From the NCBI RefSeq assembly GCF_003426775.1, contig NZ_QJUG01000079.1, positions 1-35,339 on the forward strand: a stretch of DNA of 35,339 nt. The letters are read 5' to 3'. Source of the stretch: Allorhizocola rhizosphaerae. GTDB taxonomy: Bacteria; Actinomycetota; Actinomycetes; Mycobacteriales; Micromonosporaceae. Positions within the stretch are counted from its first letter, which is position 1. Each line of letters starts with the position of its first letter. Shown one piece after another: positions 4,098-28,364 of this stretch. Below the pieces are notes generated by a model that saw only the letters and a program-made list of their open reading frames with translations, made no database searches and was not told where the DNA came from. A program made the translations under genes and the position numbers.

Positions 4098-4801
4098 TGG
4101 ACTTCACCGGGAAAGTCGTGCTCGTCACCGGCGGCACGCGTGGCATCGGAGCCGGGATCGCCCGGCGCTTCCGGGAGGCGGGCGCCCACGTCGTCGCATT
4201 CGGCCGCAGCGAGTGCGACGTGCGCGACCCGGCACAGGTGGACCGTCTCATCACGACAGTTGTCGAACGCCACGGCCGGCTGGACGTAGTCGTCAACAAC
4301 GCGGGCGGGTCACCCTACGCCGAGGCGGCCACCGCTTCCCCGCGCCTGCACACCAAAGTCATCGAGCTCAACCTCATCGCCCCGCTGCACGTGTCCCAGC
4401 GCGCCAACGCCGTGATGCAGACCCAAGGCGAAGGCGGCTCGATCATCATGATCGGCAGCGTGAGCGGTGCCCGCCCCTCGCCCGGCACGGCCGCATATGG
4501 CGCGGCCAAGGCGGGTCTGCACCACCTCGCCACTTCGCTTGCCGTCGAATGGGCCCCGCGAGTGCGCGTGAACAGCCTCGTCGTCGGGCTCGCCGAAACC
4601 GAGGCGGCCCGCGACCACTACGGCGACTCGCTGGCCGACGTGTCCGCGACGGTCCCGATGGGCCGCATGGCCACACCCGACGACGTGGCCGACGCGTGCC
4701 TCTTCCTCGGCTCGCCCCTGTCGGCCTACATCACCGGCGCGTCCATCGCGCTGCACGGCGGGGGCGAACGTCCGGCGTACCTAGCGGCCGTGCGCCGCTG
4801 A
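4097..4801 (+). CDS. SDR oxidoreductase of the HIP-degradation locus (Rv3549c-like)
   Basis: A 234-aa classical short-chain dehydrogenase. The cofactor motif TGGTRGIG lies near residues 11-18, NNAGG near 74, the catalytic Ser in IMIGSVSGA, and YGAAK is the active-site Tyr/Lys pair. Some residues between the Rossmann motif and NNAG are missing compared with many family members, giving a short protein. Position matches the SDR divergent from echA20 in mycobacterial KstR2 regulons, so a role in oxidising or reducing a steroid-ring intermediate is likely but inferred. ATG 4097 lies inside an inverted repeat and has no Shine-Dalgarno sequence, so a leaderless start is possible. The aldehyde dehydrogenase follows 50 bp downstream with its own KstR-type site. 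Confidence 0.8.
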   Translation: MDFTGKVVLVTGGTRGIGAGIARRFREAGAHVVAFGRSECDVRDPAQVDRLITTVVERHGRLDVVVNNAGGSPYAEAATASPRLHTKVIELNLIAPLHVSQRANAVMQTQGEGGSIIMIGSVSGARPSPGTAAYGAAKAGLHHLATSLAVEWAPRVRVNSLVVGLAETEAARDHYGDSLADVSATVPMGRMATPDDVADACLFLGSPLSAYITGASIALHGGGERPAYLAAVRR

Positions 4802-25807: not shown

Positions 25808-26566
25808 TCAATTGGCCTTCAATTTCAGCCGGATCCGGTACAGGTGCGGCCAGTTCTTCCCCGTGATAAGCAGATCTTCGGTACCCGGCAGGGCCGCCAC
25901 GCCGTTGAGGCGCCCACCTTCGAAGTCGGCGGGGACGAGACCCGGCAGCATCCCGACGTGCAGGACTCCGGTGACGTTGCCGGTCGCCAGGTCGATGCGC
26001 ACGAGCTCGTCGGTCTGCCACACGTTGGCCCACACCGTCGAGCCCACGCACTCCAGCTCGTTGAGGTTTTCGACCGGTGCGCCGGAGCGGGTCACCTGCA
26101 GCGTGCCGATTTCCTTGAACGACAACGGATCGCGCAACGTCAGCGAGGCCGTGCCGTTGCTCATCACCAACCGGTTGCCCGACGAGCACAGGCCCCAGCC
26201 CTCGCCGTCGTAGCGCTCCTCCCGGATCGGCGCGAGGGTGGCGCGGTCGCGCAGCACGGCCACGTTGTTGCGCCAGGTGATCTGCCAGACGCGGTCGCCG
26301 ACCACGGTCATGCCCTCGGCGAAGTGCTCGTCGGGGTTGCGGACCCGCTTGATGGGAGCCGGGTCGTCCAATCTGGACGTGCCGATCCACGACTCGCCGA
26401 ACCCTCCAGAGCTCTCGTACAGCACGCCGTCGTGGTATTCCAGCCCCTGGGTGAATGCGGCCCGGTCGTGCGGGTAGGTCGCGACCACCTCGGCCTCCCA
26501 CATCGCCAACCAAGGGTCCGGCGCGGGCGTCGAACAAGCCGTAAGCATGAGCGCCAGCATCAGCAC
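25808..26566 (-). CDS. Glutaminyl-peptide cyclotransferase, lipoprotein
   Basis: A beta-propeller enzyme of the bacterial/plant glutaminyl cyclase family (PF05096), about 252 aa, converting N-terminal Gln of peptides to pyroglutamate. Landmarks are YPHDRAAFTQGLEYHDGVLY, ESSGGFGESWI, EGWGLCSSGNRLVMSNGTA, VENLNELECVGSTVWANVWQ and ADFEGGRLNGVAALPGTEDL. The N-terminus has a lipobox (LMLTAC), so it should be an exported lipoprotein. The only nearby in-frame start is GTG 26566, which leaves a signal peptide without basic residues; the natural frame continues upstream through RSLWAV, so the true start is uncertain. It is divergent from RNase Z with only 18 bp between the start codons. Confidence 0.85.
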   Translation of the reverse strand: MLMLALMLTACSTPAPDPWLAMWEAEVVATYPHDRAAFTQGLEYHDGVLYESSGGFGESWIGTSRLDDPAPIKRVRNPDEHFAEGMTVVGDRVWQITWRNNVAVLRDRATLAPIREERYDGEGWGLCSSGNRLVMSNGTASLTLRDPLSFKEIGTLQVTRSGAPVENLNELECVGSTVWANVWQTDELVRIDLATGNVTGVLHVGMLPGLVPADFEGGRLNGVAALPGTEDLLITGKNWPHLYRIRLKLKAN

Positions 26567-26572
26567 AGCCCA

Positions 26573-26578
26573 TAGGCT
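26573..26578 (+). promoter_or_regulatory. -10 box TAGGCT for leaderless rnz
   Basis: TAGGCT (TAnnnT) ends 6 nt before GTG 26585. The start has no Shine-Dalgarno sequence, and the box lies in the 18-bp gap to the divergent glutaminyl cyclase start. Confidence 0.5.
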
Positions 26579-26584
26579 GCGGGT

Positions 26585-27541
26585 GTGCGTGAGTTGATCG
26601 TGCTGGGGACGGCGAGCCAGGTGCCGACGCGCGACCGGGCCCATCACGGGTGCCTGCTGCGCTGGGACGACGAGGGCATCCTGTTCGACCCCGGCGAGGG
26701 CGCGCAGCGGCAGCTGCTGCTGGCCGGCGTGCCGGCGAGCGCCATCACCCGCATCTGCATCACACACTTTCACGGCGATCACTGTCTGGGCCTGCCCGGT
26801 ATCGTCCAGCGGTTGTCCCTGGACGGGGTGGAGCACGAGGTATCCGTACATTATCCCGCCAGCGGAAACGATTATCTGGAACGCCTCCGAAACGCCAGTA
26901 TTTTCCATGATCGTGTACGGCTGCGGGAGCACCCGCTCGCAGGCTCCCAGAGCTGGGGGCACACGGTCCGGCGGGCGCGAGTGGAGGCCACGGGACATGG
27001 CAGCCGACAGGGGCCGACGGAGGGCCGAGGCGAGACGCCCGCAGCCATGACGCACTGGACGGCCCACCGCCTGGCCCACCCGGTGGAGACCTACGGCTAC
27101 CGCCTGCGCGAGCCCGACGGGCGGCGCATGGTGCCGGAACTGCTTGCGGCGCACCGCATTTCCGGCCCGGCCATCGGGCAGCTGCAGCGCGCCGGCGGCC
27201 CGCTGCTGGACGCGGTGAGCGTGCCCAAACGGGGGCAGGTGTTCGCGTTCGTCATGGACACGGGCGTGTGCGACGCGGCCATCGAGCTCGCGGCAGACGC
27301 CGACCTGCTGGTCATCGAGTCCACGTTTCTCGAGTCCGAGGCCGAGCTGGCCGCGATCGCCGGGCATCTCACCGCCGCGCAGGCCGCCCGGATCGCGGCC
27401 GAGGCCGGCGTGCGCAAGCTCGTGCTGACGCACTTCTCCCAGCGGTACCCGGATTCGAGCGTGTTCGGCGACGAGGCCGCGCGTCACTTCGGCGGCGAGA
27501 TCGTGATCGCCCGCGAGCTCGACCGGATCAGGATCCGCTGA
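26585..27541 (+). CDS. rnz: Ribonuclease Z (tRNA 3' processing endonuclease)
   Basis: A 318-aa metallo-beta-lactamase-fold nuclease that trims tRNA 3' ends. The zinc motif is [14 protein letters not shown] (HxHxDH type, residues about 60-73), with [11 protein letters not shown] at the N-terminus, VMDTGV and ESTF in the middle and the late ligand His in LTHFSQRY. Between about residues 120 and 165 there is extra sequence, [20 protein letters not shown] and flanks, not expected in the family. Nucleotides 26970-27048 within it belong to a dispersed repeat also found at 28278-28357. The frame is kept, so the enzyme may work with a surface-loop insert. GTG 26585 is the leaderless start. It overlaps the convergent GNAT gene by 14 nt. 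Confidence 0.88.
26970..27048 (+). repeat. Dispersed ~79-bp repeat, copy A (inside rnz)
   Basis: It begins GGCGGGCGCGAGTGGAGGCC and ends GGGCCGAGGCGAGACG...GCAGCCAT. Copy B (28278-28357) has the same length within 1 nt and the same order. The first 23 bases match at 18 and the last 27 at 24 positions. It adds about 26 codons in frame to rnz. Confidence 0.6.
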
Positions 27542-28364
27542 GCCGCACCCACATCTCGTCGTAGTGTCCCACCTCGGTGAAGCCAAGCGAGCGATATACC
27601 GCGATGGCGGAGTGGTTGTCGGCCTTCACGTTGAGCGTGATGTGGTCGACCGTCGCGTGTAGACGGTGGCACAGCGCGGCCACCACGGCCCTGCCAAAGC
27701 CCATGCCGCGAAAATCGGGATGGGTGGTCACGTTGCCCAGGGCGCAGACGCGATAGACGGGCGACCACACGTGCACCCCGGCGACCGCGATCAGGCGCCC
27801 GTCGCGTCGCACGCCCATGTACTGCCCCGTGTCGAGCATCCGCGGGTCGAACCAGTTGCCCGGATAGGCGGCCTCGTAAAGCGCGGTGAGCTCGTCCAGA
27901 TCTGCCCGGGTCAGCGGCTCACCGAGCGCGGGCGTGTCCGCCGGCCGGGTCAGCGCCATCTTCAGGTGTGCCTCGCCGCCGGGCCACGGCGACGCACCCG
28001 TCGAGATGTGCGCGTAAAATCGTTGTGGCAGAAGGAAAAGCGTGCTCTCGATGAAGTCCTTCAGCGCGGCCGTGTCGCGGTCGAAGGCCAGCACCGTGGG
28101 GAAGCCGCCGCCGTGATAGACCAGGATCACCTGTTCGTCGCGTTCGTACCAGGTCGTGTAGGGCCAGAAGAAGTCGTCCAGGTCGCCAAGCGAATAGGCG
28201 TGCAGGTGCGGGTCGCGCTGGAGCAGCTGCGCCAGCCGCTCCCGGTCGTGTACGGCGTGCGGGGTCACCCTCGGCCTGGCGATCGCGAGCGGGGGCCGCG
28301 CGGACCCATCGGCCGGGCGGTCACGGCGGGGGGCCGAGGCGAGACGATCGCGGCCATCAGTCAT
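27528..28364 (-). CDS. GNAT family N-acetyltransferase
   Basis: A 278-aa protein with an N-terminal region (about 40-130: [32 protein letters not shown]) and a C-terminal GNAT domain. The acetyl-CoA loop is [19 protein letters not shown] (pattern R/Q-x-x-G-x-G/A), followed by [20 protein letters not shown]. The acceptor is unknown. ATG 28364 is chosen because TAGCCT (28377-28372, minus) lies 7 nt upstream, a leaderless arrangement. However, the first ~30 residues ([20 protein letters not shown]...) are encoded by a dispersed repeat, so the ancestral start may have been GTG 28268. Convergent with rnz (14-nt overlap), divergent from the TPR gene. Confidence 0.82.
28278..28357 (+). repeat. Dispersed ~80-bp repeat, copy B (5' end of the GNAT gene)
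   Basis: It begins GGCGATCGCGAGCGGGGGCC and ends GGGCCGAGGCGAGACG...GCGGCCAT. It is related to copy A in rnz (26970-27048), in the same orientation on the plus strand. It contains GCGATCGC-type palindromic ends and supplies the N-terminal codons of the GNAT protein on the minus strand. Confidence 0.6.

Follow-up and report, generated by a model that had tools for sequence, protein, structure and literature searches.

Rickettsia palindromic elements (RPE) are described as lying within pre-existing ORFs, where the frame is kept and the inserts fall in solvent-exposed parts of the proteins (PMC3767692; PMC10969869), and a similar mechanism has been considered conceivable in other prokaryotes (PMC10969869). 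Intragenic REPs have been reported in the ORFs of several species, including genes of DNA repair and RNA metabolism, and more than half of these inserts are dimers or groups that encode 20-30 residues (PMC3733652); the words Streptomyces, Frankia, Mycobacterium and Salinispora are absent from the main text of that paper. Intragenic in-frame fusions have also been reported for MITEs (PMC10969869). No description of such a family in actinobacteria was found in the accessible parts of open-licence papers.

The repeats described here were recognized in a window of 35,339 nt, which is the whole stretch of DNA analysed, from Allorhizocola rhizosphaerae (contig NZ_QJUG01000079.1). By analogy, the Rickettsia palindromic elements are the closest to them in behaviour. 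Like those elements and the Wolbachia palindromic elements, the repeats are short, palindromic and in frame within pre-existing genes, and empty sites are found in relatives; they differ in that they occupy an 8.8-Mb G+C-rich genome, use both strands and several frames, and have a unit of ~93 nt with a fold of its own. The likeness is one of behaviour; ATGAC, a shared word that occurs in copy A, has too few letters to serve as evidence of homology. MITEs are similar in being short and non-autonomous with complementary (inverted) ends, which here form the outer stem, but differ in that no target-site duplication and, as far as the draft assembly shows, no parent transposon was detected here. 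Mycobacterial interspersed repetitive units (MIRU) are short actinobacterial repeats at start/stop overlaps that keep the frames open, and in this general description they would be similar. The original prediction had regarded a mini-repeat of this kind as unusual; dozens of copies exist, but in-frame palindromic insertion is itself already on record (Rickettsia, and REPs in several species), and the family is a variant that differs from REPs in size, ends and fold. With a probability of about 0.78, we consider the two copies in the window to be members of a family, some sixty strong, of non-autonomous, hairpin-forming mobile repeats of ~93 nt that behave as near-neutral selfish DNA.

A dispersed repeat family with a long-range hairpin

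Both copies in the window were located on the plus strand by covariance-model matches, copy A at 26961..27055 (95 nt, 80.3 bits) and copy B at 28269..28364 (96 nt, 83.9 bits). As had been predicted, they share the ending GGGCCGAGGCGAGACG-n2-CGC-n-GCCAT, which is exact at 27022-27048 and 28331-28357. The unit itself is longer than the ~79 bp first proposed, measuring 95-96 nt by the model, a few flanking positions included, and ~93 nt by the spacing of tandem copies. Over their full length copies A and B are 69% identical; 300 shuffled pairs averaged 55% and did not exceed 62.5%. A search of the window alone with up to 3 mismatches gave 4 matches versus 7.5 in shuffles, so weight was placed only on the exact matches and on the count in the whole genome.

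The genome searched was a draft assembly of 8.8 Mb in 493 contigs, estimated to be 96.66% complete. The core 16-mer GGGCCGAGGCGAGACG occurs 45 times across it with at most 1 mismatch, while the reversed control gave 0. The first alignment comprised 19 of 29 copies, picked by eye for clear ends, and the covariance model, built from 19 copies, matched 69 places at E<=1 and 63 at E<=0.01. The search for further copies that had been proposed therefore yielded dozens, and the observation was right and larger in extent than originally stated. Fifty-five of the 69 model matches were studied in detail; their pairwise identity has a median of 69%, which indicates that the family is old. Tandem pairs, judged from the positions of the model matches, are spaced 93, 93, 94 and 92 nt apart, and contig C466 (L118, 1980-2123) holds shortened 66-nt copies in tandem at 78-nt spacing together with a third, weaker match.

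The ends of the family form a long-range hairpin with compensatory changes. The 5' GGCC-bulge-GCGGGCG pairs with the 3' CGCCCGC-GGCC, two further GGCC words form the inner stem, the outer and inner stems are separated by an asymmetric internal loop that is conserved (GAGAGGA / GAGGCGAGA), and the tip of the hairpin is a variable stretch of roughly 30 nt. In copy A the arms of the outer stem lie at 26965..26977 (GGTC, a two-base bulge, GCGGGCG) and 27036..27046 (CGCCCGCAGCC), and those of the inner stem at 26986..26989 (GGCC) and 27023..27026 (GGCC, then GAGGCGAGACG), all on the plus strand; conservation across the family is highest in GAGGCGAGACG. When the 19 copies were aligned with MAFFT, 5 of the 15 pairs showed changes on both sides, against an average of 1.4 in shuffles, 0 of 500 of which reached 5. 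Pairing was found in 94.7% of the cells of this alignment, a figure favoured by the structure having been drawn from the same 19 sequences, and was lost on sliding the partner. Among 53 distinct rows, 11 of the 15 pairs were changed on both sides (34 cells), in a model-made alignment that leans to the structure. The folding energy of four single copies as DNA was not better than that of shuffles (z-scores of -1.18 to +0.14), so the case for the hairpin rests on covariation.

L070, L079, L080 and L009 make up a subfamily whose 5' arm contains GGCGGCTCGC and whose 3' arm contains GACGAG(A/T)C, both arms being lengthened and mutually complementary; L004 and L021 are partly alike.

Copies within genes and at gene ends

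Copy A lies in sense orientation inside the CDS of RNase Z (rnz; 26585..27541, plus strand), a presumably essential tRNA-processing enzyme. We infer the exact ends of the inserted segment to be 26963..27055 (plus strand; 93 nt or 31 codons), corresponding to residues 127-157 of the ORF, and in the sequence the insert is bounded by GCAC at 26959-26962 and 27052-27055. A search with RNase Z gave some match in all 61 genomes searched from the same family of bacteria, the source genome included; the match was strong (best E below 1e-40) in 37 other genomes, and the remainder were weak matches to other metallo-beta-lactamase-type proteins. The strong matches were split into two pieces, typically covering residues of about 2-121 and 158-317. 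Orthologs from 29 of these 37 genomes were aligned and the insert was present in 0 of the 29, in agreement with the in-frame loop and the empty sites anticipated by the original prediction. RNase Z from which residues 127-157 are removed reads SWGH-WTAHRL, which aligns by eye with forms in relatives such as FGTLTARRL, and the RNase Z of L059 has an unrelated low-complexity loop at the insert site. The loop of copy A falls in a length-variable segment directly before a conserved HPVETYGYR-type motif, the His of which we take to be a metal ligand, and the active site is probably intact despite the loop. Against the E. coli RNase Z chain (2cbn), the matching pieces stop at query position 100 and restart at 155, facing chain positions 104 and 132.

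To the left of rnz and divergent from it, an ORF on the minus strand of the window (25808-27586) has in part of its length a sequence (ACSTPAPDPW... FTQGLEYHDGVLYESSGG) that resembles what we presume to be a secreted glutaminyl cyclase.

Homology on both sides of the copy was found for 9 of the 55 copies, that in RNase Z included, and extra residues were present in 8 of the 9. Seven of these copies are sense and two antisense to the gene, the sense ones in at least two frames; with both strands and several frames represented, these copies do not preserve any one peptide. The interruptions of conserved proteins amount to about 20-32 residues, and none occurs in the relatives compared. Relative to ClpC1, the best solved chain, the alignment of ClpC (L087) moves out of register by 31 residues after LIHEGE. 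The corresponding shift in NadB (L022), where the copy measures 152 nt, is 32 residues, and that of a sensor kinase (L068) against a solved chain is 30 residues in the ATPase domain (502/393 to 534/395), with the Pfam domain HATPase_c spanning the insert. In a second kinase (L082) the HisKA_3 match stops short at position 37 of the 68 in its profile, a phytase-like protein (L116) has a 64-nt copy and extra residues by its Pfam match, and the insert in a BTAD regulator (L107) lies between two domains. The GT87 domain of the enzyme at L004 extends across the copy but hardly gains in length (236 residues over 230 profile positions), which makes this the one case of the nine without evident extra residues.

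Matches to a TRAM-domain RNA methyltransferase (L085) fall into two pieces near 300/333 for many of the 61 genomes, and for five relatives they run through the site unbroken. Alignment of 24 orthologs showed a short segment in most and an intermediate one in L138, L139 and L145, and the long loops found in L140 and L141 are distinct ones that give no model match. The unbroken matches and these long loops indicate that the methyltransferase site varies anyway. Five further copies, one each at L063, L070 and L108 and two at L123, fall within long open frames, and their homology is one-sided or could not be placed.

Within clpC, the native codons for AQEEAR resemble the 5' motif of the repeat with 3 mismatches, exactly 93 nt upstream (L087, contig C238, 4275-4292 versus 4182-4199), a likeness that is probably a coincidence.

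By a looser count, in which N-terminal extensions and copy B are included, 21 of the 55 copies lie within a spanning open frame of coding-type base composition, the listing of in-gene copies being one that selects for open frames. In the 41 copies of 90-100 nt, 4.54 of 6 frames are open, versus 4.81 in shuffles. Openness is thus not above that of shuffles and a special coding tolerance was rejected, as base composition and selection suffice. The idea of a mobile, coding-tolerant mini-repeat that may modify RNase Z is supported by the dispersal and the empty sites, with the limit that its tolerance does not exceed what G+C richness alone would provide. A frame classifier put 9 of the 55 copies in phase; it is crude, having labelled the rnz and clpC copies as 'different strands' against the homology, and its counts were set aside. 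Two copies were flagged as out of phase, and these lie at gene boundaries (between two Mur ligase genes, and at the start of a DUF6098 gene) and not in broken genes.

Several copies coincide with the ends of genes. For a response regulator (L064) and an ABC ATPase (L074), the apparent ATG is that in the element's own GGCCATGA end. Further copies at gene starts or ends adjoin GTP cyclohydrolase I (L117), an MMPL protein (L110), DUF6098 (L061) and permeases (L112, L115), and at L111 the copy sits at the junction of the two Mur ligase genes, probably murE and murF.

In the window, copy B is antisense to the gene for a GNAT acetyltransferase (CDS 27528..28268, minus strand) and extends to an ATG at 28364. 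The start at GTG 28268 fits the orthologs, which were found in 10 of 40 other genomes: by eye, 9 of the 10 have a possible start codon at most two codons from this position, and their upstream extensions are unlike one another. This GTG lies just outside copy B, whereas translation from ATG 28364 would lengthen the protein by 32 residues that copy B encodes. A TAGCCT hexamer, noted by eye, precedes ATG 28364 by seven bases and would be compatible with a leaderless start there; a promoter scan found nothing. Copy B would either lengthen the N-terminus of the GNAT protein or form its 5' leader. The proposal that copy B supplies the N-terminal ~30 residues therefore holds if translation starts at ATG 28364, but not for the ortholog-fitting GTG 28268, which is outside the element.

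Spread of the element and alternative explanations

The dispersal, the tandem copies and the empty sites together show that the element was inserted, and from the dispersal and the empty sites we infer that it has been mobile. The covariation of the hairpin points to the folded form as important for spread. An enzyme acting in trans, perhaps since lost, may have moved the element as a folded strand, and copies that landed in frame in surface loops, linkers or termini would have survived; survival within genes would be helped by the length of the insert, 93 nt being a multiple of 3, and by G+C-rich sequence being often stop-free. Such in-frame copies would presumably give rise to additional loops on translation and be retained as near-neutral selfish DNA. 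Matches to the 5' half with at most 2 mismatches fall within model matches in 34 of 35 cases, the other being at a contig end beside one (by eye, in the draft assembly). A longer parent sharing these ends was therefore not detected. For target-site duplications, the mean longest shared word was 3.48 versus 3.51 permuted (P=0.65, n=42), and as the copies are old a decayed signal is possible; this test took 42 of the 55 copies, 13 tandem or degenerate ones being left out by choice, and copy A alone shows a repeat, GCAC, at its ends.

If the repeats were REP/BIME elements moved by a RAYT (Y1, HUH) transposase, one would expect them to be palindromic, dispersed and at times tandem or intragenic, as they are, and a CGTC word is present inside the unit, though internally only, where it lies in the best-conserved stretch (GAGACG) and reads on the minus strand. 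REPs, however, are 20-40 bp long, carry a GTAG/CGTC tag and are associated with RAYT, whereas the unit here is ~93-95 nt and its consensus ends, determined by eye as ACGGCC and GGCCATGAGGCAC, have neither tag. Two local REP-like hairpins were tried and rejected, with 0 pairs changed on both sides compared with 5 for the long-range hairpin. The Y1 domain (PF01797) had no match in the source genome, as represented by the 96.66% complete assembly, and the same search was positive in 5 of 14 control genomes. We consider a REP/BIME origin to be quite unlikely. A primary role as a functional RNA or regulatory motif, such as a structured 5' leader or a small RNA, with the in-gene copies as by-products, also seems unlikely. 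The covarying stems, the strongly conserved asymmetric internal loop and the several copies at gene starts would fit such a role, but copies occur on both strands of genes and inside unrelated proteins, and Rfam gave no match either for the window at gathering scores or for copy A and one other copy at a relaxed threshold. The mispairs (26 G.U versus 18 A.C, P=0.29) likewise gave no strand bias by which the folded strand could be assigned.

Mitochondrial byp elements are inserts that are skipped by the ribosome, and a structured insert within conserved genes could in the same manner be skipped, or be removed from the RNA as introns are. This is very improbable here: the listed in-gene copies are in frame and stop-free, although the method selects open frames, the two out-of-phase copies are at gene boundaries, and 93 nt falls below the length of known self-splicing introns. 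The explanation that can most readily be set aside is a chance similarity of G+C-rich coding DNA. The sole match among genome contigs, in a Mycobacterium MAG (L091), does look like a chance coding similarity, lying at the start of a predicted ORF and scoring 20.7 bits without the 5' half, and the 5' motif at up to 3 mismatches is little commoner than its reversed control (80 versus 52 matches). For the source genome, however, chance is refuted by the core count against its control and the identity of the copies above that of shuffles, and the covariation and the empty sites also speak against it, leaving it a negligible probability.

Occurrence in other genomes

The favoured reading, that of mobile and near-neutral selfish repeats, allows one to ask what moves such repeats without a RAYT transposase. 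It also provides matched proteins with comparable 31-residue inserts (RNase Z, ClpC, NadB, the kinases and others), in which the tolerance of a foreign loop is directly testable. We see about an even chance that these are undescribed, possibly genus-specific structured repeats, moved as a folded single strand, that they have placed 31-codon loops in several conserved proteins of a single actinomycete-like bacterium, and that they represent an independent origin of protein-coding palindromes outside Rickettsia and RAYT/REP. To judge from this family, palindromic repeats may come to colonise genes in frame independently in a bacterium with a large genome.

The collection holds one genome of the source genus. 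None of 299 other genomes sampled within its bacterial family (44 genera, the source genus included) contained the strict 3' pattern, and a scan of viral_contigs with this pattern gave no match, nor did copy A against plasmids or one other copy against phages. At 63 loci of relatives with rnz, GNAT or methyltransferase orthologs, the best model match scored 22 bits. Wider model searches returned one weak match each in 2 of 120 other genomes of the family and, at the level of the order, in 1 of 297 others, all below 35 bits. As these searches recovered only 34 (family) and 14 (order) of the 69 matches in the source genome itself, a large family elsewhere would be seen, but a few degenerate copies could be missed.

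The weak matches in other genera were L092 (1501-1594, 34.3 bits) and L094 (1501-1607, 27.1 bits) in genome G017, L093 (1501-1582, 30.2 bits) in G018, and L136 (33 bits) in G497. L092 keeps the stems through changes on both sides, and a distant relative of the family may exist in its genome.
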